Position numbers and translations under genes: made by a program. From Candidatus Bathyarchaeia archaeon (GTDB taxonomy: Archaea; Thermoproteota; Bathyarchaeia; Bathyarchaeales; Bathyarchaeaceae), in assembly GCA_035283685.1 (NCBI GenBank), contig DATETJ010000002.1:485362-549361 (forward strand): DNA of 64,000 bases, given 5' to 3'. This document shows, piece after piece, positions 13,566 to 38,043 of this stretch. The notes under the pieces are model-generated. The model was given only the letters and a program-made list of their open reading frames with translations, searched no databases and had not been told where the DNA came from. Each line of letters starts with the position of its first letter. Within the stretch, counting starts at the first letter, position 1.

Positions 13566-14036
13566 ATGAAACTCAACAGATTAGCCTTGATCTCAGCAGT
13601 TGCACTAGTAGCACTGCTCGCAGGCGCCATTGCCTTCAACGCACTCGCACCGCCCCAAGAACTGAAACTCAAAGTAAAATGGCGACCACCAAACTACATG
13701 CTAGGTAACCCCGCACCCGATCCATGGATAGCAGAAATCTTCTTTGCACCATCACGCCCACTTGAACAAATAGACCCCAATACACTATTGCTTGAAGGCA
13801 TTTACTCTCCAAGCGGCACACCATACCTACTACGAAGCTCACCAGACAGAATGGCAGTGCCCTTCGACGGCGACGACGTACTAAGAGCACTACTCACCAA
13901 GGCACCCCACCTAGCACCAGGAGAATACCGCATACTACTACAAATCACAGGAAACCTAAAACCCGAATACGGCGCAACACCTTTCAGCGGCGATGGCGGC
14001 ATCAACCTCATCGTACCCGATGTGCCCCCTCCATAG
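13566..14036 (+). CDS. Small exported protein of an IDP-x-T/S-L/I-L-L repeat-domain family
   Basis: A 156-residue protein with an N-terminal signal or anchor helix (about 5-27) and a compact beta domain carrying P-W-I-A-E-I-F-F, E-Q-I-D-P-N-T-L-L-L-E-G and R-M-A-V-P-F-D-G-D-D-V. The same set of motifs (I-D-P-E-S-I-L-L-D-D, L-M-V-K-F-D-A-E-R-V) occurs in the protein at 43678-44109, so the two share a domain. Comparable domains are found in archaeal surface proteins, but I know no function. It is co-transcribed with the cohesin-like PEFP gene (3-base gap) and may be its accessory or binding partner. Confidence 0.65.
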   Translation: MKLNRLALISAVALVALLAGAIAFNALAPPQELKLKVKWRPPNYMLGNPAPDPWIAEIFFAPSRPLEQIDPNTLLLEGIYSPSGTPYLLRSSPDRMAVPFDGDDVLRALLTKAPHLAPGEYRILLQITGNLKPEYGATPFSGDGGINLIVPDVPPP

Positions 14037-20461: not shown

Positions 20462-21373
20462 TTGAAAAACCTAAAGTTACACAGCACGTTCAGGGACAAG
20501 GTAAACGCGTTTCTAATCCTTGCCTTTATGCCCCTGCTTCCCCTGATGTACTACAGATACGCCTACTTCAACGACCCGGTCGGATCCCTCATACCCTTAT
20601 ATGGCCTCCTCATAATCGCAATGAAAAAAGACCAGTTTTCAAACCTTATGTTATCCGCAAACCACTTTCAAAGAGTCATCGGCATCATCATCGTTGTCAG
20701 CAGCTTTTTCATCTACTATGCAATTGCACCCATCATTCCAACCGCAGGCTTTTACGGACTGGCAAACTACACTGTCTATCTGTTAGGTCTCCTTCTGGCG
20801 TTCTTCAAAATCTCAGCGTTCAAGCAAGCATTTTCAGCCCTTTTCTTAATAACAGCCAGCGGTTTCACAGGTCTAACATTCCGATGGATTGAATATCAAA
20901 TAACGCCCACCGTTCCCAACTATGTATCTCTGTTCTCCTCTGTACTGGGGGTCTTCGGAATCAACAATGCAGTACGCACTCCATTGTCCATCGACCTCTA
21001 CACTCCACAGGGTCGTTTGCCCGTATATTTCGAAGCCGGATGTTTAGGAATCTATAGCGTCATCGTCTTTTCAATAATCATCGTAGTAACAATGGTTGAG
21101 ACGCCAGTCAGCAAACGAACAAAGTTGTTATGGTCTTTTGCTGGCGCGATAGGCGTTTACCTCCTCAACATTGTTAGACTGCTCATAGTTGTCGCGTCCA
21201 TGTATTTTTACGGCTACGACTTCGGACAACAGGTCCACCAAGTCATAGGCTACGCTCTATTCCTATCGTGGCTCGCAATCTTTCTCTTACTCTTCAATAA
21301 ACGACAGACCATCATTGGCAAAGTCCAACTAGTTCAACGAAAATTCACGGATAGCCTCAACCGAGCAATCTAG
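20462..21373 (+). CDS. Archaeosortase (exosortase/archaeosortase family transpeptidase)
   Basis: A 303-residue membrane protein with about eight helices. The three family residues stand in order: Cys194 in Y-F-E-A-G-C-L-G-I-Y, Arg239 in L-L-N-I-V-R-L-L-I, and His259 in Q-V-H-Q-V-I-G-Y-A-L-F. Archaeosortases cut C-terminal tripartite signals such as PGF, PIP or PEF and move the protein to a lipid or other anchor. The likely substrate in view is the PEFPLG-tailed protein at 12072-13562. Start TTG 20462 is the first in frame. The gene heads a run of glycan genes, as bacterial exosortases do in EPS loci. Confidence 0.9.
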   Translation: MKNLKLHSTFRDKVNAFLILAFMPLLPLMYYRYAYFNDPVGSLIPLYGLLIIAMKKDQFSNLMLSANHFQRVIGIIIVVSSFFIYYAIAPIIPTAGFYGLANYTVYLLGLLLAFFKISAFKQAFSALFLITASGFTGLTFRWIEYQITPTVPNYVSLFSSVLGVFGINNAVRTPLSIDLYTPQGRLPVYFEAGCLGIYSVIVFSIIIVVTMVETPVSKRTKLLWSFAGAIGVYLLNIVRLLIVVASMYFYGYDFGQQVHQVIGYALFLSWLAIFLLLFNKRQTIIGKVQLVQRKFTDSLNRAI

Positions 21374-21547
21374 CCGCATTATTAGATAGGATGCCGGCAC
21401 ATTTACTTCCATAACCTTTTCAGATGAAACAAAAACGTGATTCCACGCCAACCAGTATAGGACTAGCATATATCGAATTATGAAAGCAATCTTTATAGCA
21501 ACCGCTTTCATTCTTCTTAGTGAGGCAGAGACGAGAGGAAGGACTGT

Positions 21548-21889
21548 TTGTTTACGAGGCAAAGTCTGGCGGACTTTAAATCTAAAGCCATAAAAAAGGG
21601 AATCTGGTATGAAACACTGTCAAAAGCAGAAAGAGCCATCGTCGACCTGACAATAAAATGTGTAGAGAAAGTCAGAAGTCTAGTATTGTCCAGAACCATC
21701 GCAAGAATTCTCAACAAGATCGCCACCAGCCTCGAAAACACCTTTCTTCAAAAGGCAGATAGAATAGGCAACCAACTCGCCCAGCGACTCAGCCAAGTCG
21801 CTGAAAAATGGGGCAACAAGACCGCTCCAAAGTGGAGAACCGACAGAAAATTCATCAAGTTTCTCGGAGTCACAGCGCTCAACACATGA
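21548..21889 (+). CDS. Hypothetical helical protein next to archaeosortase
   Basis: I do not recognise a named family. The 113-residue product is basic and helical (G-I-W-Y-E-T-L-S-K-A-E-R-A-I-V-D-L-T-I-K-C-V-E-K-V-R), without signal peptide or clear membrane helix; the repeated spacing of leucine, isoleucine and valine suggests a coiled coil. TTG 21548 follows GAGGAAGG at normal distance. Its position between archaeosortase and the first glycosyltransferase suggests a cytoplasmic helper or regulator of the locus, but the sequence gives no direct clue. Confidence 0.55.
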   Translation: MFTRQSLADFKSKAIKKGIWYETLSKAERAIVDLTIKCVEKVRSLVLSRTIARILNKIATSLENTFLQKADRIGNQLAQRLSQVAEKWGNKTAPKWRTDRKFIKFLGVTALNT

Positions 21890-21929
21890 CTCCACGGCTG
21901 AGCTACCTAACGATAGGAGAGAGCAACAC

Positions 21930-22820
21930 TTGATAGTCGCATGCATCCCAGCACACAACGAAGAGAAAACAATAGCCCGCGTCATCTTAGAGGCGCAAAA
22001 ATATGTCTCCTCGGTAATTGTATGCGATGATGGCTCAACCGATTTAACCGGCACTATTGCCCACAGGCTAGGCGCTCTGGTTATTCATCATGAAGAAAAC
22101 CTAGGCTACGGAGCTGCTTTGCGCAGTCTATTTAAGAAAGCTAAGGAAATGGAAGCCGATGTAGTGTTAACCCTTGATGCAGACGGTCAACACGATCCCG
22201 GCGAAATCCCAAATTTAATCGAGCCCGTCTTGGAGCATAAAGCTGACATAGTGTTCGGTTCACGATTCCTCCAAAAACACAATCGCGTTCCAACATATCG
22301 ACGCTTCGGCATAAAACTGTTGACCAAAATGAGCAACGGGTCACTCAAGAACGGTGTCTCCGATGCGCAATGCGGCTTCAGAGTGTACAACAAAGCCGCA
22401 ATTCAAAAACTCGAACTATCCGAGGAAGGCATGGGAATTAGCGCAGAAATACTTCGGAAAGCCAAACAACTAGACTTGAGAATCGCAGAAGTGCCAGTGC
22501 AAGTAAACTACAAGACCGTGGAATCCTCAAGCCAGAATCCAGTTAGTCATGGTCTGGGCGTTCTGTCAACAATTATTCGGCTAGTTGTTGAAGAAAGACC
22601 TCTTTTGTGCCTGGGCGTTCCTGGCGCTATCCTTCTAGCTATTGGAGTAGGCTTCGGGATCTGGACGCTCCAGCTGTTCACCATTGAAAGGCGTATAGTT
22701 ACAAACGTGGCATTGGCTTCAATTTCTTTCGCCCTTGTGGGGATATTCACCTTGTTTACAGCCATAACACTGTACGCCATCGCGAGACTATTCCAAAAGC
22801 AAGCTGCTCAACGTTCTTGA
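21930..22820 (+). CDS. GT2 glycosyltransferase, polyprenyl-phosphate sugar transferase type
   Basis: A 296-residue DPM1/GtrB-like enzyme. The GT-A domain shows I-P-A-H-N-E-E near the N-terminus, VVCDDGSTD-like V-I-V-C-D-D-G-S-T-D, and the acceptor motif T-L-D-A-D-G-Q-H-D-P near 84-93. After the catalytic domain (about 1-215) come two membrane helices (about 225-290). Such proteins move a sugar from a nucleotide donor to dolichyl or polyprenyl phosphate on the inner membrane face, supplying GT-C enzymes outside. TTG 21930 follows AGGAGAG. The GT-C-like protein at 33038 could be its client. Confidence 0.85.
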   Translation: MIVACIPAHNEEKTIARVILEAQKYVSSVIVCDDGSTDLTGTIAHRLGALVIHHEENLGYGAALRSLFKKAKEMEADVVLTLDADGQHDPGEIPNLIEPVLEHKADIVFGSRFLQKHNRVPTYRRFGIKLLTKMSNGSLKNGVSDAQCGFRVYNKAAIQKLELSEEGMGISAEILRKAKQLDLRIAEVPVQVNYKTVESSSQNPVSHGLGVLSTIIRLVVEERPLLCLGVPGAILLAIGVGFGIWTLQLFTIERRIVTNVALASISFALVGIFTLFTAITLYAIARLFQKQAAQRS

Positions 22821-22851
22821 GTAAAGGTCGCGCACACAAGGATTATCATAA

Positions 22852-23694
22852 TTGGCGACAATGCTGAACATTCTGACAATCGATCTGGAAGAATTACACC
22901 ACGCGGAATATGTCAGAGCAAAGTCCTTTGAGCGCAAAGATGACAATTCGAAAAACGACCTCGAAAGAACCTTAACCCTACTTCGAAAACACAACGTACA
23001 AGCAACTTTTTTTGTTGTTGGCGAACTAGTGGAAAAACACCCGGAGCTCCTTTCTTCGATAAGAGAGGATGATCATGAAGTGGCTTTTCACGCGTTTTAC
23101 CACGAACCGATGTGGCAGAAATCTGCTGAAACCTTTAGACTTGAAATTGACAAGTTCAACAAGATCACAGGCGAGCCGAGCCTAGGCTTCCGTGCGCCAT
23201 CTTTCTCCGTCGACGAAAGGACCATATGGGTTCTAGACGTGCTCGAAGAGGCAGGGTTCAAATATGATTCGAGCATTTTCCCTGCGAGAACTCCCCTTTA
23301 TGGTGTCACTAACGCTCCATTGAAGCCCTACAAACCAAGCCATGAAAAAGTAAATGTTGAAGACAATGACGCGGAGTTATGGGAATTCCCCCTCCACGTG
23401 CATAAGTTGGCCTTTCTACGATTTCCAATGGCGGGAGGCTTCTATCTCCGTTTTCTACCCACGTGGCTCATGGCTAGATCTGTAGGAAAGGCAAACGATG
23501 ACGGCCGCCCTGCTGTGATATACGCTCACACATGGGAACTCAATCCAGAGACTCCGAAGCTTAATCTTGGACTGTACAGGTCATTTGTAACCTTTCACAA
23601 TTTGAAAAAAACCGTGTCAAGACTAGATCGACTGCTGTCCAAGTTCAAGTTCTCCAGCGTGGAAAACTACATGAATAAAGTGGGACTACTCTGA
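22852..23694 (+). CDS. Polysaccharide deacetylase (NodB-like), exosortase-locus type
   Basis: A 280-residue CE4-fold protein: I-L-T-I-D-L-E-E near the start (first metal/catalytic aspartate), A-T-F-F-V-V-G, D-H-E-V-A-F-H-A-F-Y-H-E-P with two histidines for metal, G-F-R-A-P-S-F-S and the late Y-A-H-T-W-E-L-N motif. The D-L-E-E start and W-E-L block are typical of the subfamily found in bacterial PEP-CTERM/exosortase EPS loci. It would remove N-acetyl groups from the surface glycan or a precursor. There is no signal peptide, so it may act inside. Its stop overlaps the next ATG by one base. Confidence 0.85.
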   Translation: MATMLNILTIDLEELHHAEYVRAKSFERKDDNSKNDLERTLTLLRKHNVQATFFVVGELVEKHPELLSSIREDDHEVAFHAFYHEPMWQKSAETFRLEIDKFNKITGEPSLGFRAPSFSVDERTIWVLDVLEEAGFKYDSSIFPARTPLYGVTNAPLKPYKPSHEKVNVEDNDAELWEFPLHVHKLAFLRFPMAGGFYLRFLPTWLMARSVGKANDDGRPAVIYAHTWELNPETPKLNLGLYRSFVTFHNLKKTVSRLDRLLSKFKFSSVENYMNKVGLL

Positions 23695-24329
23695 TGGGAT
23701 ATTCAGAGAAAGATTACTGGGACCAGGCGGCCCAAGAGTTCGATTCGTTCTACAGTGAAGAGAAAGCCGCGTTGAAGAGGACGATTGACAAGATTTTCCG
23801 CAAAGCCATGACTGAAAGATTCCATCTCACGCTTGAAGAATGCAAAAACGTAAAGGGAAAACAGATAGTCGACGTAGGCTGCGGAAGCGGCCGATTAGCT
23901 GTGGAACTGGCAAAAAGAGGTGCCTATGTAACCGGCATCGACTTCTCCCAGAAAATGATCGACATGGCAAAAACAATGGCTGAGGAAGCAGGGGTACAAG
24001 GCAACTGTACATTCATACGGGACGATTATGCAGACCACGTTTTCAAACAGAAATTTGACATCTCGATCGCCTTAGGATTCTTTGACTACACCAAAGATCC
24101 CGCTTTTTTTGTCAAGAAAATGAGATCGATGACCACAGGGAAATGCATAACATCCTTTCCAGCAAAGCTTGCATTTCAAGTTCCACTTCGAATGATCTGG
24201 TTGCGCTGCAGAAACTGCCCGGTTTATTTCTACACCAAAAACCAGCTAAAACGTCTTTTTGCTCCACACTTTTCACACTATAAAATAAAGAACATTAGCG
24301 CTGTGTACTTCTGCGTGGCTTCTGTCTAG
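23694..24329 (+). CDS. Class I SAM-dependent methyltransferase
   Basis: A 211-residue methyltransferase. Motif I is V-D-V-G-C-G-S-G-R-L (about 60-69), followed by V-T-G-I-D-F-S-Q-K-M-I-D-M-A for motif II and the D-I-S-I-A-L-G-F-F-D-Y strand. The C-terminal part (F-P-A-K-L-A-F-Q-V-P-L-R) resembles enzymes acting on lipids or sugars in cell-envelope loci. The substrate is unknown; methylation of a glycan sugar is plausible from its place between a deacetylase and a GT4 gene. Start ATG 23694 overlaps the upstream stop, so the genes are translationally coupled. Confidence 0.8.
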   Translation: MGYSEKDYWDQAAQEFDSFYSEEKAALKRTIDKIFRKAMTERFHLTLEECKNVKGKQIVDVGCGSGRLAVELAKRGAYVTGIDFSQKMIDMAKTMAEEAGVQGNCTFIRDDYADHVFKQKFDISIALGFFDYTKDPAFFVKKMRSMTTGKCITSFPAKLAFQVPLRMIWLRCRNCPVYFYTKNQLKRLFAPHFSHYKIKNISAVYFCVASV

Positions 24330-24341
24330 TCAGACTGGGCA

Positions 24342-25487
24342 ATGGTATCCAGTTTGAACGTTTTGTTGGCAGCTGAATACTACCTAGCAAACCCTGATTT
24401 TGTGAGGTTAGGAGAAGAGCTTGCCCTGAGAAACCACAACGTGACTGTTGCGTCGTCCCTAAGACCGGTGGATCGTTTTCCATCAAAGACTAATGTTAAA
24501 CTATCCGAAATCAACCCTATAATTTCAATCTACAGAATCCCCCACACACTATCATTTCCCGTAAGCAAAATCTGCAGAACAGCCAAAGCTCACAACAGCG
24601 ACGTGATTCATGCCATAAACGATCACTCCACGAATGTAGCTACTGCCGCCTTAGTTGCTGTCGCTACAAGGAGACCATTTGTGTACACAATTCAAGGCCC
24701 AGGCACACGAACTGGGAATCCACTAGTGGACACCGTTGTCTCGACTTATGATCTGACCTTTGAACGATGGATGGCTAAACAAGCTAGGAAGGTTATTTTG
24801 CTCTCAGGCGGCTTGTTCTCAACTGTGGAGAAGTTAAGGGTTAGGAAGGAAAAGGTCGCCGTTGTTCCCTCGGGCATTGATTCCACGATCTACGATCGTG
24901 AGCGTTCTGAAGTGAAAAAAGAGGCAACAAAGCTAAGGAACGAATTGGAAATCGGAGATGAAGTGGTTATAGGCTTCGCTGGAAGACTGGTTCCAGCCAA
25001 AGGCTTGACTTACCTTTTCTCAGCTGTCAAGCAAATCGAAGACAAGCATCCCAATATCGTACTTCTCATCGTTGGAGACGGCGCTCAGAGAAACGAATTG
25101 GAAGCATTAGCTAAGGGCATGAAGATAAGAACCATTTTTGCAGGTTGGCAGCGCAACATACTGCCCTTCTATGCTTTGATGGATATCTTTGTTTTGCCTT
25201 CTCTGTATGAAGGACTGCCAAATGTGGTTCTTGAAGCTATGGCCATGAAAACAGCTGTGGTGGCAACTGACGTGGGAGGTAACCCGGATGTTCTCGCTAA
25301 TGACGAAAACGGATTCCTTGTACCCGTGAAGAATGTTCCAAAGCTTGCTTCGGCTTTAGCGACACTTGTGGAGGATGAGGCTTTGCGTGAGAGAATGGGC
25401 ATCACGAATAGGCAAAAGGTCGAGAGCGATTTTCAGTGGAGCCGCACGGTTGAGAAGATTGAAAAGATTTATTATGAAGTCGTCTAA
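24342..25487 (+). CDS. GT4-family glycosyltransferase
   Basis: A 381-residue GT-B enzyme. The C-terminal half shows I-G-F-A-G-R-L-V-P-A-K-G, L-L-I-V-G-D-G-A-Q-R-N-E-L, and the E-x7-E motif in Y-E-G-L-P-N-V-V-L-E-A-M-A, all standard for GT4. The N-terminal half binds the acceptor. No membrane helix is present, so it acts at the inner face on a lipid-linked glycan. It lies 12 bases after the methyltransferase gene and ahead of the DegT gene, in the same operon-like run. Confidence 0.9.
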   Translation: MVSSLNVLLAAEYYLANPDFVRLGEELALRNHNVTVASSLRPVDRFPSKTNVKLSEINPIISIYRIPHTLSFPVSKICRTAKAHNSDVIHAINDHSTNVATAALVAVATRRPFVYTIQGPGTRTGNPLVDTVVSTYDLTFERWMAKQARKVILLSGGLFSTVEKLRVRKEKVAVVPSGIDSTIYDRERSEVKKEATKLRNELEIGDEVVIGFAGRLVPAKGLTYLFSAVKQIEDKHPNIVLLIVGDGAQRNELEALAKGMKIRTIFAGWQRNILPFYALMDIFVLPSLYEGLPNVVLEAMAMKTAVVATDVGGNPDVLANDENGFLVPVKNVPKLASALATLVEDEALRERMGITNRQKVESDFQWSRTVEKIEKIYYEVV

Positions 25488-25536
25488 TGTCTCTGAACAA
25501 AAGATTCTTTGATCTTTAAGTAAAGAGGAAGAATCG

Positions 25537-26673
25537 ATGAGCCGTAAGGAGATTCCGCCAGTCAAACCGTATTTCCCGCCTGAAGACGTCCAGACCATCC
25601 AGAAAGACGTTGAGAAAATCTTGAACTCGGGAATGCTGACTCTCGGCGAATATACAAGGCGTTTTGAGGAAGAATACGCCAAACTGTGCGGGACCAAGCA
25701 TGCCGTCGCTGTGAACTCAGGAACCTCTGCCCTTGAGATTGTTTTGCGTGCGTTGGGTCTAAAACCAAGCGACGAGGTTTTGGTTCCAACTAATACATTT
25801 AGCGCCACTGCAGCTGTTGTTGTCATCGTTGGTGGGAAACCTGTTTTTACGGACATTAGTGCAGAGTCGCTTTGCATAGATGCTGAAAGTGTGCAAAAGA
25901 ATCTGACAAACAAAACGAAGGCAGTGATTGCGGTACACATTGGCGGATTAGTCTGTCCAGATATCAAAGCAATTCGAGAAATATGCGAAGATCACAAGAT
26001 CTTATTGGTAGAAGATGCGGCTCACGCGCAAGGCAGCTTATTGGAGAGGAAGGCTGCAGGTTCATTTGGCAAAGCGGGCTGCTTTAGTTTCTATCCAACT
26101 AAGGTAATTACCACCGGCGAAGGCGGAATTATCACAACGGACAGCAGTGACTTGGCTCAAAAAGCAATGGTACTACGTGATCAGGGAAAAGAGAACTTCA
26201 GCAGCAACATCATAATTGAAATAGGCTACAATTGGAGAATGGACGAAATTAGCGCTGCTATCGGGTTAACGCAACTTCATCGCCTTCCCGACTTTATCAA
26301 ACGTCGAAACGGGATAGCGCATTATTTTGACAAGAATCTTGCGAATGCGGGTGGACTCAAGCCTTTGCGCATTCCCGAGAATGCGGTAAGCAATTACTAC
26401 AAGTACGTGGCTTTTGTCGCGCCTGAAATCCAGCGTGACATGTTTAAGCAAAGGCTGCGGGAGAAAGGCGTGAGGCCCAGCGGTGAGGTGTATTGGCCAC
26501 CGTTGCACATGGAGCCGGTCTACAAGCGTTTGCTTGAGGTTAAGGAAGGCGACTTTCCAGTGGCTGAAGACCTGTGTGCGAGGATGGTTTGCTTGCCCAT
26601 GTATAGTCAGATGACGTTTGATGAAGCTGAATATGTAGTTGAAAAAGTCAAAGAGGTTTTGGCGGAAATTTGA
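25537..26673 (+). CDS. DegT/DnrJ/EryC1/StrS aminotransferase
   Basis: A 378-residue PLP enzyme. V-N-S-G-T-S-A-L-E near 65-73, V-E-D-A-A-H-A-Q-G (PLP aspartate) and F-Y-P-T-K-V-I-T-T-G-E-G-G with the Schiff-base lysine at about 189 are all present; the end P-M-Y-S-Q-M-T is also typical. Family members aminate keto-sugar nucleotides to give amino-deoxy sugars for glycans. With the epimerase gene directly after it and a GNAT gene further down, it may make an N-acylated amino sugar for the surface glycan. Confidence 0.9.
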   Translation: MSRKEIPPVKPYFPPEDVQTIQKDVEKILNSGMLTLGEYTRRFEEEYAKLCGTKHAVAVNSGTSALEIVLRALGLKPSDEVLVPTNTFSATAAVVVIVGGKPVFTDISAESLCIDAESVQKNLTNKTKAVIAVHIGGLVCPDIKAIREICEDHKILLVEDAAHAQGSLLERKAAGSFGKAGCFSFYPTKVITTGEGGIITTDSSDLAQKAMVLRDQGKENFSSNIIIEIGYNWRMDEISAAIGLTQLHRLPDFIKRRNGIAHYFDKNLANAGGLKPLRIPENAVSNYYKYVAFVAPEIQRDMFKQRLREKGVRPSGEVYWPPLHMEPVYKRLLEVKEGDFPVAEDLCARMVCLPMYSQMTFDEAEYVVEKVKEVLAEI

Positions 26674-26697
26674 TGTGCACAAGGAGACATTGCTAGT

Positions 26698-27597
26698 TTG
26701 CGAGTTCTTGTAACTGGCGGTTCGGGTTTCATCGGCAGTCACGTAGTTGACAAATTAGTTGAGAACGGCTACGAAGTGCGCGTGTTTGACAGGGTTAAGC
26801 CTCTTCGCGAAGACGTGCAGTGGTTTAACGGTGACCTTCTCAACGAGAAAGATGTGCTGGAAGCCTGCAAAGACATAGAGGCTATCTACCATTTAGCCGC
26901 CATTGCAGACGTTAACGTGGCGCTGTCACATTTCGACGTATGTCTGATGGTTAACGAAATGGGCACGATGAATTTTCTGAAGTCGGCGACCGCTGAAGAA
27001 GTTGAACGAATAGTCCTAGCCTCTACCTCATGGGTTTATGGAAAAACCAAAGGCGTAGTTACAGAAGAAACGCCGATTCCCTTTCCCGACCACATTTACA
27101 CAAAGACAAAAATTGGGCAAGAGCACCTGCTGTTTTCATGGCATAAGCACCACGGCTTACCTTACACGATCTTAAGGTTTGACATTCCGTATGGACCCCG
27201 TATGAGGTCTAATATGGCAATTTCCATCTTTGTCCGAAGGGCACTGCGGAAGGAGCCAATCACCATTTTTGGTGATGGCAGACAGGGACGCTGCTGGATT
27301 TATGTTGAAGATTTGGCCGAGGGCAATGTTGCTGCATTGGCTGAAGGCGGCAAGAACCAGATTATCAATCTCGCTGGTCCTGAGTTCATAACAATGAATC
27401 AAATCGCTGACGCTCTGAAAGAGATTTTTGGCGACATTCCACTAAAGTACGAGCCTGCCCGTCCGCATGATTTTGAGGGTTCGATTACTAATATTGAGAG
27501 GGCTAGGGCACTACTCAAGTGGACACCGAAGACACCGTTTAGTGAAGGATTACGCAAGTACGTCGAACATGTTAAGAGTATCCCCACAGAGAGATAA
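26698..27597 (+). CDS. NAD-dependent sugar epimerase/dehydratase (extended SDR)
   Basis: A 299-residue extended SDR. The nucleotide motif V-T-G-G-S-G-F-I-G-S-H is at the N-terminus, with Y-H-L-A-A near 65, S-T-S-W-V-Y-G for the catalytic serine region and Y134-x-x-x-K138. The later P-Y-G-P-R and G-D-G-R-Q-G-R-C-W-I-Y-V-E-D-L motifs mark the UDP-glucose 4-epimerase or GDP-mannose dehydratase branch. It changes an NDP-sugar for the downstream transferases. TTG 26698 follows AAGGAGA. The short gap to 27719 holds no gene. Confidence 0.85.
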   Translation: MRVLVTGGSGFIGSHVVDKLVENGYEVRVFDRVKPLREDVQWFNGDLLNEKDVLEACKDIEAIYHLAAIADVNVALSHFDVCLMVNEMGTMNFLKSATAEEVERIVLASTSWVYGKTKGVVTEETPIPFPDHIYTKTKIGQEHLLFSWHKHHGLPYTILRFDIPYGPRMRSNMAISIFVRRALRKEPITIFGDGRQGRCWIYVEDLAEGNVAALAEGGKNQIINLAGPEFITMNQIADALKEIFGDIPLKYEPARPHDFEGSITNIERARALLKWTPKTPFSEGLRKYVEHVKSIPTER

Positions 27598-27719
27598 CAA
27601 GCTCTTATGCGCACTCCTCCCCTCTTCCTCAAAAGAGGCCGCAAGAAGCGAGAGCACGTTTGCCTCCTTCGGACACTGAAGTCAAGAGATAATGCCAAAA
27701 TCCTAGGAGACGGAGTTTA

Positions 27720-28448
27720 TTGAGTGAAAAAAACAAGAGAGCAAAGAGATGGAAAGAAGCTCAAGAGAGCGAGTTCAAATTTTACTCGCACATCAAAAAG
27801 GAAGAGAAATTTTCAAAAGATTTTAGCTACTCCCCGAATGCCTTGAACTACAAATTTGAACGATGGGGAATCAGAGATTTTGATGGAAATACAATACTGG
27901 AGGTGGGGTGCAACGTCTTTGGGCCACTTCACTACATTCGTGGCAAAGGAACTTTCAAAGTGGGTATCGACCCTTTGCTAGGGACACTGTATGAGGAAGT
28001 TGCGGCGAAAGACATTTTCTATATCAGGGGCGTCGGTGAGAACCTGCCGTTTGGCGATGAAGAATTCGATGTGGTACTATGCCACAATGTGCTTGACCAT
28101 GTGAATAACCCTAGGAAAGCTGTTGAGGAAATTCACAGAGTTCTAAAACCGCGGGGGGCATTCCTGCTTTGTGTAAATACCCACCCTAATATTATTCGAA
28201 TGTTTAGTCCTGTCTTAAACAGTCTCGATAAGGAGCACCCTTATCATTTGGGTTCAGGTCAGATCCAGAACATTGTCAGATCGCACCGCTTCAACATCAA
28301 CAAATTTGTCACGGTTAAAGGATTTGATACATCTGAGCCAAAATATGGCCTGCTGAAACGATTGCTGAAATCCTTTAAGTTGAAGCCCTTTTTTGCGTTC
28401 TTCTTGATAAGTACACTATACATCACAGCAACGAAGTCAAAAGAATGA
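27720..28448 (+). CDS. SAM-dependent methyltransferase
   Basis: A 242-residue methyltransferase. Motif I is modified, L-E-V-G-C-N-V-F-G-P-L, where most enzymes have G-x-G; motif II is V-G-I-D-P-L, then G-E-N-L-P-F-G-D-E-E-F-D-V-V-L-C-H-N-V-L-D-H-V and R-V-L-K-P-R-G-A-F-L-L, which are classic methyltransferase 11 features. A hydrophobic C-terminus (P-F-F-A-F-F-L-I) may contact the membrane. It probably methylates a glycan sugar or lipid carrier. TTG 27720 follows GGAG. Confidence 0.8.
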   Translation: MSEKNKRAKRWKEAQESEFKFYSHIKKEEKFSKDFSYSPNALNYKFERWGIRDFDGNTILEVGCNVFGPLHYIRGKGTFKVGIDPLLGTLYEEVAAKDIFYIRGVGENLPFGDEEFDVVLCHNVLDHVNNPRKAVEEIHRVLKPRGAFLLCVNTHPNIIRMFSPVLNSLDKEHPYHLGSGQIQNIVRSHRFNINKFVTVKGFDTSEPKYGLLKRLLKSFKLKPFFAFFLISTLYITATKSKE

Positions 28449-28500
28449 AACGCTTCCATGCTTCGCCTGTACAGCTTTCCATGAGAAGACGTGATTAATA

Positions 28501-29601: not shown

Positions 29602-29625
29602 AATTCCTCGCTGAGAGAGATAGGC

Positions 29626-30636: not shown

Positions 30637-30640
30637 AATC

Positions 30641-31765
30641 ATGGCTATCATCGCTTATCTTCACGATGGAACCAGCATCTACGACCACATGTTCCTAGAA
30701 CACTTGGTAAAGAGAAACACAGTGTTTTTCCTAACCTTTCATCCCAAACCACGCTTCATCCCCAAAGAAGCTAGAGTAACAATAATGCGAGAACCCCTGT
30801 TGTTCCTCGCTGACAAAGCATGGATAGAGGGCATACGCATGTACACCCTATTCTTGCTTAGAACTCTTTTGGTAAAACTGGAACTGCGACGGATCAAACC
30901 TCAACTGGTCATAGGCTGTATGGCAACAAAATACGGGTTCTACGCAACCGCCACAAGCTTCAAACCAACCATTGCAATTGTTTGGGGGACCGACGTTCTC
31001 ATCTCTCCCAGACGTTTCCTATTCTTCCGCTTCCTCGCAAAACACACGCTGAAAAAGGCAGACGCGGTCATACTGGACAGTAAGGTTCAAAAGAATGCCG
31101 CAGTACAACTCGGATGTAATCCGGACAAAATCCTCAAGTTTCCATGGTTCAATGAAGAGAGCGTCAAGTTAAAGTCGTCTCGAGAAGAAACCCGGGAAAA
31201 ATTAGGCTGGTCTGACAATGTTATCATCCTCAGTGCCAGAAGCCATGAACCCCTATACGGAATCGAACACCTCATCGAAGCGATCCCGGAAATCATAAAG
31301 ACCGAACCAAACGCAAGGTTTCTCATACTGGGACAAGGACGACTGACACCAACGCTCAAGGAACGAGTTAAACAACTTCAAGTGAGCCAGTACGTAAGAT
31401 TCTTGGGACACATTCCACGAGACGAAGTCATCACTTACCTAAACTCCTCGGACATTAATGTATCAACATCGTTTTCGGACGGCACCTCAGCCAGCTTACT
31501 TGAAGCAATGGCTCTAGCAGTCCCATCAGTGGTCACGGACATCGCGGGTAACAAAGAATGGATAGAAAGCAACTATAATGGAATTCTCACGGCAACCAGG
31601 AACCCGAAAGACCTTGCAGGAAAAATAGTACACCTCGCGCAGAACCAGGACACAAGAAAGAGACTTGGAAAAAACGCTCAGACGACTATTGAGCAAAAGG
31701 TCGACTGGCAAAGAAACATGCAAACCTTTGATAGCCTAATTCAAGCACTAATAGATAAAAAATGA
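30641..31765 (+). CDS. GT4-family glycosyltransferase
   Basis: A 374-residue GT-B enzyme with A-R-S-H-E-P-L-Y-G-I-E-H-L, L-I-L-G-Q-G-R-L-T-P-T-L and S-F-S-D-G-T-S-A-S-L-L-E-A-M-A-L-A-V-P-S-V, which hold the GT4 donor site and a form of E-x7-E with the first glutamate replaced by aspartate. The N-terminal half has V-I-G-C-M-A-T and a short hydrophobic segment. It begins 4 bases after the GNAT stop and its own end overlaps the next gene by 4 bases (ATGA), so these genes are clearly co-translated. Confidence 0.85.
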   Translation: MAIIAYLHDGTSIYDHMFLEHLVKRNTVFFLTFHPKPRFIPKEARVTIMREPLLFLADKAWIEGIRMYTLFLLRTLLVKLELRRIKPQLVIGCMATKYGFYATATSFKPTIAIVWGTDVLISPRRFLFFRFLAKHTLKKADAVILDSKVQKNAAVQLGCNPDKILKFPWFNEESVKLKSSREETREKLGWSDNVIILSARSHEPLYGIEHLIEAIPEIIKTEPNARFLILGQGRLTPTLKERVKQLQVSQYVRFLGHIPRDEVITYLNSSDINVSTSFSDGTSASLLEAMALAVPSVVTDIAGNKEWIESNYNGILTATRNPKDLAGKIVHLAQNQDTRKRLGKNAQTTIEQKVDWQRNMQTFDSLIQALIDKK

Positions 31766-33033
31766 AGCCTAAACCTCGCTCCCTGCTGATAATAACCGAA
31801 GATTCGCCTGAATCATTTAGTCCCGCAGGGGAAAGAGTTCATCATCTGGCTCTGGCAGGCAAATCCGAGTTCAGCAAGGTGGCAGTTCTCGCCCTAAGAC
31901 CATCGCAGAAACCAAAAGGCAGACATGCTAAGGGAAGCATTTCAGAATCAGGAGTTACGTTACACACCGTGAATTTCTCACGGGCTCTGCCTTACCCGTT
32001 TGTCAGTTTCTATGATCCAGTCAAAATGATAATGCTCCTAAGCCACGGACTAAGGATTGCGAGACGATTCAAACCCTCTCATATACTCGCTTCAATGCCC
32101 CCCTTAGAGACGGGCACAAGCGCTTGGTTGTTGGCAAAACTATTGGGGGTCAAGCTTCTTGTTGATCTTCGAGACGACTGGGAATCCTCCGTCAGCTCAC
32201 AGCTCAAGCGTTACTTTCCAACTTCGCTTACCCGCTCTCTTTCCCTGGTTGCAAAGGAAGTGTACACTTCTGCCTCTGCGATTCTTACTGTCACGCAGAC
32301 TATCAAAGACACTCTTCAAAGCCGCCTAGTTCAGACTCCGCTTCTATTGCTTCCAAATGGAGCTGATACCAGAATCTTCCATCCCATATCCAAAGAGGCT
32401 CGACACAAAGTAAGGATTGAATATTCGCTCCCGTTGGACAAGCTGGTAATAGCATATTGCGGTAGTGGCCTTACACCCTACTATCGCTTAGACCGACTCC
32501 TGACCTCAATGACACTGCTCTCCAAGAACGCTCTTGATAGCCTATTTTTTGTTTTTTACGTGTACAACGGCCACGCTCAATTGGACTCGCTCAAGCATCA
32601 GCTCAAAATCCAAGAGGGCGTCGTCGATATACGCAGTCCTCTGCCACGTTCCCAATTGGCTAAAGCTCTGGCTGCCTGCGACGTAGGGTTGGTGCCATTC
32701 GACTCCAAACCTTATCTTCTCTGCGCCCGTTCCACCAAACTGTACGAATACTCGAGTTCTGGGCTGTATGTCATCTGTAGTGGACCAAGAGGAGGAGAAC
32801 TCGACACCTTCTTTTCGTCGAATCCTGAACTAGGATTGTTCACTTTGCCAGACGCCTCGAACTTCGCCCAAGTCTTCGGTCTAGTTTCTGAAAAAGCTGA
32901 GAACCTGTTAGAGGACTCTTCGAGGCAGTCGCGCTATGGGTTTATTAGACAGAATTATGATAGACAAACATTGATGCGAAAGAGCTTTAGAGAGCTATTC
33001 GAAACCGTAGAGAAAGCGAGAAGGCATCAATAG
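31762..33033 (+). CDS. GT4-like glycosyltransferase
   Basis: A 423-residue GT-B protein. The N-terminus has S-P-A-G-E-R-V-H-H-L-A near 20-30 and the C-terminal domain I-A-Y-C-G-S-G-L-T-P-Y-Y-R-L-D, D-V-G-L-V-P-F-D-S-K-P and K-L-Y-E-Y-S-S-S-G-L-Y, the pattern of WbuB/TuaC-like transferases where K-L-x-E-Y replaces the last part of the donor motif. It should add a sugar to the lipid-linked chain. Start overlaps the previous stop; the next gene follows after 4 bases. Confidence 0.8.
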   Translation: MKPKPRSLLIITEDSPESFSPAGERVHHLALAGKSEFSKVAVLALRPSQKPKGRHAKGSISESGVTLHTVNFSRALPYPFVSFYDPVKMIMLLSHGLRIARRFKPSHILASMPPLETGTSAWLLAKLLGVKLLVDLRDDWESSVSSQLKRYFPTSLTRSLSLVAKEVYTSASAILTVTQTIKDTLQSRLVQTPLLLLPNGADTRIFHPISKEARHKVRIEYSLPLDKLVIAYCGSGLTPYYRLDRLLTSMTLLSKNALDSLFFVFYVYNGHAQLDSLKHQLKIQEGVVDIRSPLPRSQLAKALAACDVGLVPFDSKPYLLCARSTKLYEYSSSGLYVICSGPRGGELDTFFSSNPELGLFTLPDASNFAQVFGLVSEKAENLLEDSSRQSRYGFIRQNYDRQTLMRKSFRELFETVEKARRHQ

Positions 33034-33037
33034 CGCA

Positions 33038-35899
33038 ATGAAAAGAACCGATTGGATCGTTCTAACACTAGCTTTATCGACCGCACTTCTTTCCCTCAAT
33101 ATTGTAGTGCAATCTCCAGTTATTGGAATAATTGCATCCATCATCTTCATTGGCGGCGCATCGGCGATTCTTGGCAGATGGTTCTTCACATCTGAAAACA
33201 AGGCATTCAGATTTGCTTTAGGAATGCTCACGCTACTGATGCTATTATCTCTTACAGGCGCGGCTTTCGTCATCATGGGTAGTTTCACAGAACCAGTTTC
33301 GCTATTCACGTTTCTCGCCTTGTATGTTGCGTTAACAATCATGTTAAGAAGGCTGGAAGAGAAGGGTTCAGCAGAGGTCGATAGCTCATCTGACGCAGAA
33401 TTATCAACGAAAGACACAAAGAACACTTTCCGATCTTTTGTTTCCCTCTTGCCTTTCGCATCATTCGTGACTGTTGCCTTTATGCTTCTTTGGCTTGCAC
33501 GAACAGGCGAGGGCGTCGCCTCGGTGTGGCTAACAATTCCCAGCATCTTCGGCGCGATGTACTTGATAAGCGGCTTTTCTCTCTTTGTTGTTGTCTTCTC
33601 CAACCGGCTCGGCAATAACGTCAAGTTAGCCTCGATTTGCTTTTTCTCATTGTTGTCTCACAGTCTTTTCCTGCTGGTTTGGTATCCGGGCAGATACGGT
33701 GACCCGTGGTCACATCTAGGAGAAGTAAGATACATCGTCAGAACGGGGATGCCATATGCACATTCCTGGATGCTGCAAGAATCCTTGTGGGTTGATCTTC
33801 TGAAATTCCGGGGATTCCACTCGCTCGTCGCATTCCTTGAGAGAATGCTGTATTTTGATTTGTACTGGATTTACATTCTTCTCGTTCCCGTCCTCTGGTC
33901 GGTTTTCACCCCTCTGTTGGCGTACAAAACAGCCGCTACTCTGGCTATCAAGAAAAGCAAGATGTTCCCATACCTTGCCGCCTTGGCGACACTTGCTTTT
34001 CCTACACTCATCGCATGGGGAGCGGTTTCCGTACCCAATTCTCTGGGCTTTGTATTCTTCTTCGCGTCAGCTTTGCTTGCCCTTATGTGGATTCGCCAAG
34101 GAGACAAAAAGACCTGGCTCTTGGCTGCCTTGGCAGCGCTTGCTTCTTCCTTCGCTCATCCTCAAGCCGGGATTTTTGCAGTTATGTTCCTTTTCCTCGC
34201 AACTGTCATTCAGAAAACTAAACGAAAAGTTGTCTGGGTCCTCTGTCTTTTGGTACTATTTGCGGTCTACCCAACAGCTCTGCGTTTCCAAGACGCAACA
34301 TTCGCATCTGTTGGTTTGTATCAAATCAACAATTTCCTAAACTTTCAATCCGAAATATCCACGCTTCTTCTAATATTCGGGTTAGTGGGCCTGATTTTAG
34401 GAATTCGCGGAAAATACGTCGATTCGAAGACCACGCTGCTTCTATTCTGCTACTATGTCATCATACTTTTCGAATACTATTTCACAAAATATGGCATGGC
34501 TAACCTTCCTTATGGCCCAGTTAGGATCCTAGCAATGGCGGATTTGCTCTTGGCGCCTTTAGTGGCGTTAGGTTTCTGGGCTCTTATCACTTCCATGAAG
34601 AGAACTATCCGGCAAACCACTGTACCTCCCCAAGCTTTTATGAAGTTGCTCAATGTGAAGTCTAGGTCGCGTTTTAGCAGTCTAATCCTTATTGGACTGT
34701 TTCTGTCGTTTCAGTTCACAGCCGTTCTGTACCAAGCTTATCCGCAGAACGAATTAGTTAAAGTTCAGCCTTCTGTTTACGAGCTTGAGGCCATACGGTA
34801 TATTGACTCAAACGCTCCCACTCGTTACGTGGTTCTGTGCGAGCCTGGATTCGCGAGTTTAGCGATTGGATTCTTGGGAACAGATTATGGCTATCTTGGA
34901 GGTGGAAAAGGACTTTTCGGCTATCCTGAATGGTGGTATCCCACCGTTCAAATGTATCTTGAAATGACCAAGAATCCATCCATTGGCATTCTCAAAGAAG
35001 CCATGAACTTCACAAATGCTGAGATGAGTTTTTTTGTGATTTCCGAGAGAAACCCCGATTTTGACAAAATCGTGGCGCGTTCCTTGGACATCTTTCCCGC
35101 CTATCAAGCTTTTGGCGATGACAAGCTTTACGTGTTCTGGTATCCTCTTCCAGTCTTTGAGGAAGACGGGCCTTCGGTAAGGGTTGTCTTTGATGACGGT
35201 TTAGGAGGAGAACAAAACGTTACAACCAAGCTCTCCTACATGATCGAGAGCGAAATTAACTCCACGCTCACACTCATTGGATATACAAGTTACAGAGTAA
35301 CCAGTTTTCCGACCCATTGGACTTTTCTAGATCTAAGGATAAACAGCTTGTCCAGTGAATTTGATGGCACGAGCGATGTCAACTCGTTCATATATGTTCG
35401 CGGGCTTCAAACAAGCGATGTGGTCACATTAAAGTGGCTTTTCAACCGGCGTTACACGAACGTTGGATGGAAAGAAGACTCGTTTAAAGGTCGAGTGTGG
35501 AGTCAAGGACCGTACTATAGCAATATTACACCCATAATCACGACTGATGGTAATGTATTGAGCATTTCGTTTTCCCTCACCCCTGATTCCTACCAGTACT
35601 ATTACCATTCAACATCCGTCGACCTTTCTACAACTGACTACCCATATCTGCTGATGAGATGGAGAGCGGATCAACCCGTAGCGGTTTCGGCAATCTACTT
35701 TGATGCAGGAGGGTCATACGAAATTATACAGTTTGGGAGCATGAGTACAGAATGGAGTTCGATCATCGTGACTCTTCCGCCGAACGCTTTCGTACGGACA
35801 ATTATGGTTGGATTCAACAATGCACGCAACCAACGCTTGTCAGGACCAGTCCAAATGGAAATAGACTATATACTCTTTAGTGCTAGATCAACACCATAG
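33038..35899 (+). CDS. Large GT-C-like membrane protein with extracytoplasmic beta domain
   Basis: A 953-residue protein. Residues 1-115 hold about four helices, then a charged linker (K-R-L-E-E-K-G-S-A region), then helices from about 140 to 565, with an outside loop W-Y-P-G-R-Y-G-D-P-W-S-H-L-G-E-V-R whose D-P-W motif resembles the acidic first loop of GT-C transferases. Residues about 570-700 are soluble and the last ~250 form a beta-rich module that looks like a carbohydrate-binding or jelly-roll domain. It may use polyprenyl-phosphate sugars to extend or transfer glycan outside. The pair at 41350/41762 is a split relative without the last module. Confidence 0.7.
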   Translation: MKRTDWIVLTLALSTALLSLNIVVQSPVIGIIASIIFIGGASAILGRWFFTSENKAFRFALGMLTLLMLLSLTGAAFVIMGSFTEPVSLFTFLALYVALTIMLRRLEEKGSAEVDSSSDAELSTKDTKNTFRSFVSLLPFASFVTVAFMLLWLARTGEGVASVWLTIPSIFGAMYLISGFSLFVVVFSNRLGNNVKLASICFFSLLSHSLFLLVWYPGRYGDPWSHLGEVRYIVRTGMPYAHSWMLQESLWVDLLKFRGFHSLVAFLERMLYFDLYWIYILLVPVLWSVFTPLLAYKTAATLAIKKSKMFPYLAALATLAFPTLIAWGAVSVPNSLGFVFFFASALLALMWIRQGDKKTWLLAALAALASSFAHPQAGIFAVMFLFLATVIQKTKRKVVWVLCLLVLFAVYPTALRFQDATFASVGLYQINNFLNFQSEISTLLLIFGLVGLILGIRGKYVDSKTTLLLFCYYVIILFEYYFTKYGMANLPYGPVRILAMADLLLAPLVALGFWALITSMKRTIRQTTVPPQAFMKLLNVKSRSRFSSLILIGLFLSFQFTAVLYQAYPQNELVKVQPSVYELEAIRYIDSNAPTRYVVLCEPGFASLAIGFLGTDYGYLGGGKGLFGYPEWWYPTVQMYLEMTKNPSIGILKEAMNFTNAEMSFFVISERNPDFDKIVARSLDIFPAYQAFGDDKLYVFWYPLPVFEEDGPSVRVVFDDGLGGEQNVTTKLSYMIESEINSTLTLIGYTSYRVTSFPTHWTFLDLRINSLSSEFDGTSDVNSFIYVRGLQTSDVVTLKWLFNRRYTNVGWKEDSFKGRVWSQGPYYSNITPIITTDGNVLSISFSLTPDSYQYYYHSTSVDLSTTDYPYLLMRWRADQPVAVSAIYFDAGGSYEIIQFGSMSTEWSSIIVTLPPNAFVRTIMVGFNNARNQRLSGPVQMEIDYILFSARSTP

Positions 35900-35924
35900 C
35901 GCAACTGAACACTCCCAAGGTTGT

Positions 35925-36986
35925 GTGAGCACGAAATCACTGATTCTTGGCGGACTTAGACTCCTCGTAGCCATGCCATTCTTCAGCTTTTCCTCTCTCA
36001 AGTCAACTCTATATCGAATGCTTGGCGCAAAGATCGGTACACAAGTGAAGTTTGGATCAGGCGCCTTCATCCAGGTTTACGATTTCAAGAGACTTACAAT
36101 AGGCGACGGTGTCGAGTTTGGTAGGAATGTCAGAATCAGCTGCGACGCCATCGAGATAGGAGACGACACTCGCGTAAGCCATGGCGTCGTCGCTGTTGGG
36201 CCTTCAGCGTTGAAAGTTGGAAGAAGCTGTTACCTTGCTCCGAAAGTGTACATCGACCTGAACGAAGCAGTCATCATAGAAGATGACGTTGGCATTGGGG
36301 CAGACTATATTTTCACCCATTCTGTTTGGCATCCTGTAACTGAAGGCGGACCTCGCAAGTTTGCGCCAGTGCATCTAAAAAAGGGCGCATGGATTCCCGC
36401 AGGGGTCTTCATAATGCCTGGGGTCACCATTGGCGAGCGAGCCACAGTGGGTGCTAGGTCGCTCGTTATAGACGATGTGCCTGATGGCTGTCTCGCTGTT
36501 GGCGTTCCAGCGCGGGTTGTCAAAACGGCGGCCGAAAACTTCACGCAGGTTTCATCAGAACAGAAAGATCGACTGGTTCGTGGCATTATTGACGAGTATT
36601 TGAAAGTCATGGGAAAATCGACCAGAATTACTGAGAATAGACATGCCGATGGCGATCTTGAGGTAATAGAAATCGAAAGCAGAGGCAAAGGCTTTCTTAA
36701 GAGAACGAATAGTCTGGTTTTGGTTTATACCTCGCAGGTTCTAGATGATTCTCTTCTGGAGCATTTAAGAGCGTTCTGCAGACGATTTAACTCTGTGCTC
36801 CTTGTTTCGCTTGGGCCGATTCCCCAAGGCATTCTTGACACCTTTCGCGCGTCCGAGCTCAAGAACATGGTCTGGTTTAGTATAGCGAGCAAAGTGCGCA
36901 GGAAGAGTTGGAACCCAGACGCTGTGGCGTTGCATAATTTTTTCAGGAGTCATTATGGCATCAGATTCAAGTTTTATCAGGCTTAG
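35925..36986 (+). CDS. Hexapeptide-repeat acyltransferase with extra C-terminal domain
   Basis: From GTG 35925 the product has about 353 residues. Residues about 45-205 are a left-handed beta-helix with hexapeptide turns (I-G-D-G-V-E-F-G-R-N-V, V-G-R-S-C-Y-L-A, I-E-D-D-V-G-I-G-A), a H-S-V-W-H loop carrying the usual catalytic histidine, and V-G-V-P-A-R-V-V-K at its end. A C-terminal alpha/beta domain of ~130 residues is added, of unknown role. Such enzymes acetylate sugars. GTG 35880 in the same frame would overlap the upstream gene by 20 bp and add 15 residues outside the fold, so I prefer 35925. Confidence 0.8.
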   Translation: MSTKSLILGGLRLLVAMPFFSFSSLKSTLYRMLGAKIGTQVKFGSGAFIQVYDFKRLTIGDGVEFGRNVRISCDAIEIGDDTRVSHGVVAVGPSALKVGRSCYLAPKVYIDLNEAVIIEDDVGIGADYIFTHSVWHPVTEGGPRKFAPVHLKKGAWIPAGVFIMPGVTIGERATVGARSLVIDDVPDGCLAVGVPARVVKTAAENFTQVSSEQKDRLVRGIIDEYLKVMGKSTRITENRHADGDLEVIEIESRGKGFLKRTNSLVLVYTSQVLDDSLLEHLRAFCRRFNSVLLVSLGPIPQGILDTFRASELKNMVWFSIASKVRRKSWNPDAVALHNFFRSHYGIRFKFYQA

Positions 36987-37008
36987 AGTGACCTTGGTGC
37001 TCAGGTGA

Positions 37009-38043
37009 ATGATGATTAACCAACAATCAAAGCAGCATCACGGCATTGTGCTGGACGTTTCCAAAAACGAATTCGACCAAGGCAGCGCTTCTTTTGGTTC
37101 GATTTTTGTCGATGACGACGATCCACGTACAAAACTACTCTTTTACTCCGGCGCGTTGAATGGACAAATGACGAAATCTGGCATAGGGTTAGCCACTTCA
37201 AAAGAAGGATTCCTATTCCATAAGGAGAGCAACGAACCAGTATTTCGTGGAGACCTCGGCTCTTTTTGCCACTTTCAGGCTTTGGTGCCAATTGTGATGA
37301 AGGTCAAGCATCGATTCTACATGATCCTATCAGGAAAGCCATCTCCAAACGAGCCTCGAAGAATCGGCATGGCTTATGCTGACGATCCCAAAGGCCCATG
37401 GCACATAATCGGTGAGCTGATTAGACCTGGACAGTTTTGGGAAGGAAATGGCATAGATAACGGATGCTCTGTTGCAAGGATTGATGAAGAAACAATACTA
37501 GTGTACTATAGCAGCATTACCTCGCCCAAAACCTGCGATGTTTTCACCTTTCTTAGACGTTATCCTGTTCGGCGCATAGGAATATTGAAAATACGAATCC
37601 GCGGGACATCGCGCTCAAACATAGAGGCTATGCGATTCTCAGGCAACCCACTTAAGCATTTGAACGGTCAGAAAGGCACATGGAATGAGTCTGTATTCTG
37701 CCCCGGGTACATTAAGCTAAATGACTTGCATCTCTTGTTCCCAGCTACCTCTACCTATTCGACAGGATTTCCATACAAACAATACATAGGATTGGCCACA
37801 AGCAAATCACCACACTTTCCAAGAGAAACACTCAAGGTAAGGAAACTGATTGATGGGCCCCTAGAGAAGAGCAAGATAATGCCTGGCATACAAAGCGAAA
37901 TTGCTTTGGACACAGCCTCACCTTATCTAGACGCTGGGAAACACAGACTTCACTTGTACTATTCTGTTGCTGATCGAGCAAACGAATCTTGGAAAATAGC
38001 CCTCACGACGTTTAGCACGGAAGGTGATCAACTAGATCGGTAA
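37009..38043 (+). CDS. Five-bladed beta-propeller glycosidase-like protein
   Basis: A 344-residue protein whose repeated W/Y-rich blades (L-F-Y-S-G-A, I-G-L-A-T-S-K-E-G, G-M-A-Y-A-D-D-P-K-G-P-W, L-V-Y-Y-S-S, I-G-L-A-T-S-K-S-P) match the GH43/GH130-like propeller superfamily. The clan acts on glycosidic bonds by hydrolysis or phosphorolysis; the catalytic acids cannot be assigned safely by eye. No signal peptide is visible, so it probably acts inside, perhaps trimming or recycling the glycan. It is the last gene of the plus-strand run that starts at 20462. Confidence 0.65.
   Translation: MMINQQSKQHHGIVLDVSKNEFDQGSASFGSIFVDDDDPRTKLLFYSGALNGQMTKSGIGLATSKEGFLFHKESNEPVFRGDLGSFCHFQALVPIVMKVKHRFYMILSGKPSPNEPRRIGMAYADDPKGPWHIIGELIRPGQFWEGNGIDNGCSVARIDEETILVYYSSITSPKTCDVFTFLRRYPVRRIGILKIRIRGTSRSNIEAMRFSGNPLKHLNGQKGTWNESVFCPGYIKLNDLHLLFPATSTYSTGFPYKQYIGLATSKSPHFPRETLKVRKLIDGPLEKSKIMPGIQSEIALDTASPYLDAGKHRLHLYYSVADRANESWKIALTTFSTEGDQLDR

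Follow-up and report, generated by a model that had tools for sequence, protein, structure and literature searches.

The 64,000-nucleotide (nt) stretch of a Candidatus Bathyarchaeia archaeon genome analysed here (contig DATETJ010000002.1; the whole stretch is called the window) encodes an archaeosortase-family enzyme lying between genes for secreted proteins and a run of sugar-enzyme genes. Across relatives carrying this enzyme, its linkage to glycosyltransferases (GTs) is real but loose; most of them, however, pair it tightly with one sugar aminotransferase that occurs nowhere else. Our best explanation of the whole, held tentatively and at slightly less than even confidence, is that the archaeosortase would cleave and anchor a cohesin scaffold protein, and that the acceptor may be an amine-bearing sugar provided by genes nearby. 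The sugar genes downstream are best explained as a distinct surface-glycan operon without the archaeosortase at its head.

20462-21373, + strand: archaeosortase-family membrane transpeptidase/protease, 303 amino acids (aa), triad C194-R239-H259 (PF09721, TIGR04178, motifs)

The identification of this gene in an earlier note on the DNA holds. The protein matched PF09721, the exosortase/archaeosortase superfamily, at 43.8 bits (cut-off 25.7) and TIGR04178 at 48.9 bits (cut-off 23), and all three catalytic motifs are present. C194-x-G196, N236-x-x-R239, and H259-x-x-x-G263 were invariant across eight aligned orthologs; C-x-G, N-x-x-R, and H-x-x-x-G are the superfamily motifs (PMC1569441; this and the other papers given by PMC number were consulted in part). 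Membership of three named subfamilies was rejected: ArtC (TIGR03762, 43 bits against a cut-off of 100, still the nearest named model), ArtA (TIGR04125, no match up to E = 1), and XrtA, or exosortase A (TIGR03109, no match). A PDB profile search with the archaeosortase gave 0 matches, and a fold search with its model (pTM 0.64) gave nothing at E below 0.001. Judged by sequence, the gene product is an archaeosortase, presumably active, of a subfamily without a name, restricted to one family of genomes. A genome_contigs scan gave a single short Lachnospiraceae match, which we regard as spurious.

A protein search with the archaeosortase found some match in 17 of the 27 genomes of the family and close orthologs in nine: the window's own genome (G000), G002, G003, G015, G016, G023, G024, G025, and G026. 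An order-wide search (162 genomes) added only G142, weakly. Class-wide (256 genomes), the nine orthologs scored at least 248 bits for the best segment and the next protein 78 bits; some archaeosortase relative was present at 1e-9 in 115 genomes. All nine ortholog genomes belong to one family. The regions inspected spanned 14-40 kb round each ortholog (20 kb for G002); contig ends close to the loci of G002, G003, G023, and G026 keep the neighbour-gene counts there low, and the G003, G015, and G016 genomes are 62-79% complete. Two disrupted archaeosortase sequences were also noted. The G002 archaeosortase is split in two frames near a contig end (L055 1027-1949, - strand), by assembly error or decay, and a broken archaeosortase N-terminus fragment with one TAG lies about 1.3 kb off the intact gene in G026 (C8:10044-10247, + strand).

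In six of the nine genomes (G002, G003, G015, G016, G023, and G026) a DegT aminotransferase gene stands directly upstream of the archaeosortase gene, at gaps of -4 to +15 nt. These six coupled DegTs belong to a single clade, distinct from both DegTs of the window's genome (the one in the window and one other); the window DegT (25537-26673) was considered as their ortholog and rejected, falling on a separate branch. A profile built from five of them scored at least 732 bits in those five genomes only, the next match among the 162 genomes reaching 401 bits; the G016 coupled DegT is partly masked and was not recovered by this search. The pyridoxal phosphate lysine, placed by its usual position in the family, is kept wherever the sequence is readable. 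Among solved enzymes perosamine synthetase is closest (341 bits), with WbpE at 204 bits, and the next gene downstream in G026 and G003 encodes an SDR, nearest in G026 to a LegB-type 4,6-dehydratase model. From this closeness and the SDR, one may reasonably guess that the coupled DegT makes a 4-amino-4,6-dideoxy sugar. By analogy, the pairing suggests that the acceptor would be an amine-bearing sugar.

The three archaeosortases without the DegT pair (G000, G024, G025) have a common FEAGC form of the Cys motif and make a separate group in a small tree that includes G142. In the distant G142 the archaeosortase is flanked on one side by the gene of a membrane-tailed secreted protein and on the other by two GT2 genes of the same strand. 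Against a small comparison set, 20 distant archaeosortase loci with flanks of about 1.5 kb showed no known gene but the enzyme itself.

The predicted substrate belongs to the secreted-protein block upstream:

9758-10543, + strand: secreted protein with a cohesin-like domain and a weak dockerin (14.1 bits, below cut-off)
12042-13562, + strand: predicted substrate with N-terminal hydrophobic signal, cohesin at about residues 231-374, and sorting-type tail
13566-14036, + strand: 156-aa secreted protein without family, 3 nt after the preceding (PEFP) gene; same order in G023
14141-15916, + strand: beta-helix (NosD)-CARDB-dockerin protein (family scan)
17759-20386, + strand: S8 subtilase-CARDB-dockerin protein, ending 75 nt before the archaeosortase

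Residues 231-374 of the PEFP protein could be aligned with 11 domains, taken from relatives as well as from the window. All 20 of 20 PDB matches of the resulting cohesin profile were cohesins (best 5e-11), and the top Foldseek matches of an AlphaFold model (pLDDT 78, pTM 0.73) were cohesin entries. With the single sequence, the Pfam cohesin model gave no match, nor did NCBIfam for the protein. Its C terminus reads PEFPLG, then a hydrophobic stretch, VYMW, and basic residues. Tails of this tripartite type occur near the window archaeosortase and in G023, G025, and G026, and a tail profile built from three genomes found new members in G025 and G144. At E < 1e-5 the PEFP[LF]G...Y[IML] tail was found in four of the nine archaeosortase genomes of the family and in none of the 18 others (p = 0.007, three of the four positive genomes having built the profile). 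The dockerins of 14141-15916 and 17759-20386 score above the Pfam cut-off. G023 carries, upstream of its archaeosortase and in the same order, the PEFP gene, the 13566-like gene, and the beta-helix-dockerin and subtilase-dockerin genes. A homologue of 9758-10543 stands next to the archaeosortase in G026, where a cohesin protein 38 kb from the archaeosortase has the same tail type. The PEFP-tailed cohesin protein of G144 (L184, 426 aa) carries a long insert inside its cohesin.

Downstream of the archaeosortase, open reading frame (ORF) calling and family scans gave a same-strand sugar-gene run of about 16.5 kb, listed here with a gene pair beyond it:

21548-21889, + strand: 113-aa ORF without family; a 38% identical homologue precedes GT2-deacetylase in G156
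21930-22820, + strand: GT2 like AglJ/PpgS (polyprenyl-phosphate sugar synthases), with C-terminal membrane segments (family scans)
22852-23694, + strand: NodB-type deacetylase, Polysacc_deac_1 + DUF3473, TIGR03006-like (family scans)
23694-24329, + strand: S-adenosylmethionine (SAM) methyltransferase (family scan)
24342-25487, + strand: GT4 glycosyltransferase (family scans)
25537-26673, + strand: DegT sugar aminotransferase, outside the archaeosortase-coupled clade; 62% to a G024 DegT
26698-27597, + strand: SDR epimerase/dehydratase; 65% to a G024 homologue
27720-28448, + strand: SAM methyltransferase (family scan)
28501-29601, + strand: GT4 glycosyltransferase (family scan)
29626-30636, + strand: GNAT acyltransferase (GNAT Pfam models match both halves)
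30641-31765, + strand: GT4 glycosyltransferase (family scan)
31762-33033, + strand: protein with GT4-type N-terminal domain (family scan)
33038-35899, + strand: GT-C-like membrane protein (no Pfam/NCBIfam match; 26% to a G024 protein)
35880-36986, + strand: hexapeptide acyltransferase, WcaF/HpsU-like (family scan)
37009-38043, + strand: GH43-like protein (28.3 bits, below the 32.2 cut-off)
41350-43648, + strand: pair of a 139-aa membrane protein (41350) and a PMT_2-like GT-C (41762) (family scan)

Families and order thus agree with the earlier gene list, except that the last ORF of the run is GH43-like and not an acyltransferase. The GT2 stands at 47% to its G023 counterpart and at 55-56% to that of G156. 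PpgS is here the name of a model in the NCBIfam scan of this GT2. The deacetylase scored 208 bits against TIGR03006, 'XrtA system polysaccharide deacetylase' (cut-off 276), and its G023 counterpart 213. A 45% homologue of the GH43-like protein lies near a DUF3473 gene in G046. Both members of the 41350-43648 pair have homologues around the archaeosortases of G023 and G026, and the GT-C also around those of G003 and G024. Glycan-type genes extend past 38043 to about 48.6 kb, with a UDP-GlcNAc 2-epimerase at 47403-48590. Between this gene and a 383-aa WecB-like gene (named by eye) lies a lone phage-type terminase large subunit (45421-46749, - strand; PHROG 2, 143 bits; Terminase_6N).

The archaeosortase had been proposed to head this run, a proposal that we reject on gaps, TATA-like pattern, codon signature, and separable sub-clusters. 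The run does lie on one strand with overlaps or short gaps, as had been noted (-20 to +174 nt). Its widest gap, 174 nt, directly follows the archaeosortase and contains a short pattern match:

21492-21499, + strand: TATA-like box TTTATAGC in the archaeosortase-glycan gap (short pattern match only)

A bacterial promoter scan gave nothing informative; from the sequence, a separate promoter for the sugar operon is likely. The third-codon C3-G3 value is 0.26 for the archaeosortase, 0.19-0.42 for the upstream block from 12042 on, and at most 0.16 for the operon. Because this signature fits, we group the archaeosortase with the upstream secreted-protein block and not with the operon. The two strands also differ strongly in composition over window positions 1-22000, with a switch near 12 kb: up to there the + strand is rich in G/T, beyond it in A/C, at third codon positions too and whatever the gene direction.

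Glycan genes also occur without an archaeosortase. In G024 a cluster at C1:1355-1375 kb, about 145 kb from its archaeosortase (1212 kb), holds an SDR (65% to that of the window), a DegT (62%), a DUF3473-like deacetylase, a GT4 (40%), and a GT-C-like protein (26%). G156 has the trio of 113-aa unknown, GT2, and DUF3473 deacetylase, with no archaeosortase in the 12 kb inspected. Only G023 keeps the window order of archaeosortase, GT2, and DUF3473 deacetylase. DUF3473 carriers in the order were not enriched for archaeosortase relatives (7/10 vs 78/152, p = 0.33), and a general co-occurrence of the two was rejected on this result. In three genomes the DUF3473 deacetylase has two companions, an ATP-grasp protein and a PHP-type metallohydrolase (53-57% alike):

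L053 13771-16879 (G023); L107 4944-6819 (G156); L110 10897-12810 (G150): ATP-grasp/PHP-type companions

Linkage to GTs was counted from genome-wide PF00534 (94 GT4 rows, all used) and PF00535 (101 of 103 GT2 rows used; one dropped row was a second fragment of a gene, the other below cut-off). Within 10 kb of the archaeosortase there were three GTs in the window's own genome, two in G003, three in G015, three in G023, and one in G026 (5/9 genomes), and no GT2 or GT4 in G002 (contig end), G016, G024, and G025. Over the nine genomes 12 GTs were seen vs 2.4 expected. The probability of five or more of nine was 0.059 with conservative probabilities and the Fisher-combined p was 0.025; since the nine genomes share ancestry, both values overstate the significance. 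At least one sugar-enzyme gene (DegT, GT, GT-C-like, or SDR) lay within 5 kb in eight of the nine, a count without chance control, unlike those of the GTs and the DegT clade, and G025 had no recognised sugar gene in that range. The linkage claimed in the earlier note therefore stands in part: sugar genes recur beside this archaeosortase clade, in most relatives at closer range than in the window, but four of nine genomes lack a GT2/GT4 within 10 kb and G025 lacks any recognised sugar gene within 5 kb. Relatives with archaeosortase and glycan genes apart, which the earlier note named as counting against its reading, were thus seen in part: G002, G016, G024, and G025 by their GT counts, G024 and G156 by glycan genes standing elsewhere. 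The parallel drawn with bacterial loci extends to the types of genes and not to their family membership.

According to the explanation that we favour, the archaeosortase would cleave the PEFP[L/F]G tail of 12042-13562, and of few others, by Cys-thioester chemistry, and the new C terminus would pass to an amine acceptor, fixing the cohesin on the cell surface. The subtilase and the beta-helix protein, which carry dockerins and whose genes lie between those of the cohesin protein and the archaeosortase, could dock on the anchored cohesin. The acceptor may be an amine-bearing lipid- or glycan-linked sugar, suggested because sugar genes recur and above all because a DegT is joined to the archaeosortase in most relatives. 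In the window genome the product of the PpgS/AglJ-like GT2 and the NodB-type deacetylase could be a polyprenyl-phosphate hexosamine whose amine is free. The most specific version, in which this clade would join the cohesin-scaffold C terminus to an amino sugar from the DegT (here from GT2 and deacetylase) that is linked to a lipid or glycan and offers a free amine, we judge rather unlikely as it stands.

Several observations weigh against anchoring of the cohesin scaffold to such a sugar. Close archaeosortase orthologs are confined to one family, and the window genome has no coupled DegT (no match at 1e-100). Five of the nine archaeosortase genomes lack a PEFP-type tail at E < 1e-5 (G003, G015, and G016 being incomplete), and G144 has a tail match of 9.5e-12, yet only a distant archaeosortase, which weakens a strict pairing of archaeosortase and tail. 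PE tails could also be processed by two further PF09721 proteins of this genome (L002 373-2427, - strand, contig C9, 685 aa; L001 337-2418, - strand, contig C11, 694 aa). Finally, the acceptor may instead be a lipid.

That last alternative, in which the acceptor would be archaetidylethanolamine as for ArtA and sugar genes lie nearby since surface genes cluster, is unlikely in our view but the strongest of the rivals. It has the best experimental precedent in archaea: ArtA needs PssA and PssD, both genes adjoin artA in Methanosarcina, their linkage predicted the amine lipid required by ArtA, and archaetidylethanolamine was proposed as the thioester-resolving amine (PMC7157517). It also accords with the separable operon (G024, G156), the four of nine genomes without GT2/GT4 in 10 kb, and the DUF3473 result; however, it leaves unexplained a DegT clade found beside only this archaeosortase in six genomes at -4 to +15 nt. 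The ArtA/PGF-CTERM system of Haloferax and Methanosarcina resembles ours in its Cys-Arg-His membrane enzyme, its C-terminal tail, and its neighbour genes making an amine-bearing acceptor (here proposed), and differs in that the tail here is PEFP and not PGF, the neighbours make sugars and not lipids, and the ArtA model does not match. ArtC/PEF-CTERM (TIGR03762) shares the PEF-like tail and is the nearest archaeosortase model, its cut-off being missed.

It is improbable that the archaeosortase serves other surface glycoproteins, the PEFP cohesin protein being processed by another enzyme or just tail-anchored in the membrane. A PE-tail gene lies about 4 kb from each of the C9 and C11 proteins, and the PEFP tail of G144 occurs without a close ortholog. 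On the other hand, both proteins have an altered triad, with Ser in place of Cys in C9 and Glu in place of His in C11, their G024 and G026 counterparts keeping all three residues, and the tail beside the C9 protein is of another type, PEVPFGT.

Attachment of the sorted protein to a long glycan or polymer made by this operon, as the earlier note suggested from the bacterial model, we consider quite improbable. The deacetylase and a GT4 are nearest to XrtA/PEP-CTERM system models, bacterial epsH is nearly always found among exopolysaccharide (EPS) genes (PMC1569441), and G023 keeps the window gene order; yet each sub-cluster is also found at a distance from the archaeosortase, the operon probably has its own promoter, and the annotated genes include no recognised polymerase or export gene. 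XrtA (EpsH)/PEP-CTERM/EPS loci share a sortase-like enzyme near GT4s and a TIGR03006-type deacetylase (PMC1569441), and differ from this locus, where XrtA does not match, the deacetylase is below cut-off, and the operon is separable. FemAB (TIGR03019) and asparagine synthase (TIGR03108) had no match among the 12 locus proteins scanned with NCBIfam, five others being outside the scan. A functionless chance neighbourhood, to which the GT linkage alone (p ~0.025-0.06) would lend itself, is highly improbable given the exclusive DegT pairing and the G023 synteny.

Amino sugars as acceptors have a bacterial precedent. In bacteria with a type IX secretion system (T9SS) a sortase, PorU, joins protein C termini by an amide bond to the Wbp/Vim linking sugar, an amino sugar (PMC7468200). 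By its PDB matches WbpE is, like the coupled DegT, an aminotransferase of the DegT type; VimE is a putative carbohydrate esterase 4, and VimA matches N-acetyltransferases (PMC7468200). In contrast to our enzyme, PorU is gingipain-related and no exosortase, and WbpE is a more distant match to the coupled DegT than perosamine synthetase is. Given deacetylase and VimA-like neighbours, Veith 2020 speculated on an amino-acid-modified sugar as exosortase acceptor (PMC7468200), so that a sugar acceptor has already been put forward in print. For the archaeal DegT pair and a cohesin substrate we found no description in the archaeosortase literature searched, whose coverage left out most subscription papers. 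Archaeal cohesin-dockerin systems (ANME, PMC9012536; Archaeoglobus) likewise combine cohesin with dockerin proteins in the absence of cellulose; a cohesin with a sorting tail close to an archaeosortase, as in the window, we did not find described in the parts consulted.

To what exosortases and archaeosortases join their substrates is not settled in bacteria, and is a matter of inference even in Haloferax. A sugar aminotransferase paired solely with one archaeosortase clade points to a definite class of acceptor, testable by mass spectrometry, and a cohesin as predicted substrate would explain the retention of archaeal dockerin enzymes on the cell. If true, this would be a second archaeosortase acceptor chemistry and a cellulosome-like archaeal platform anchored by sugar rather than by archaetidylethanolamine.

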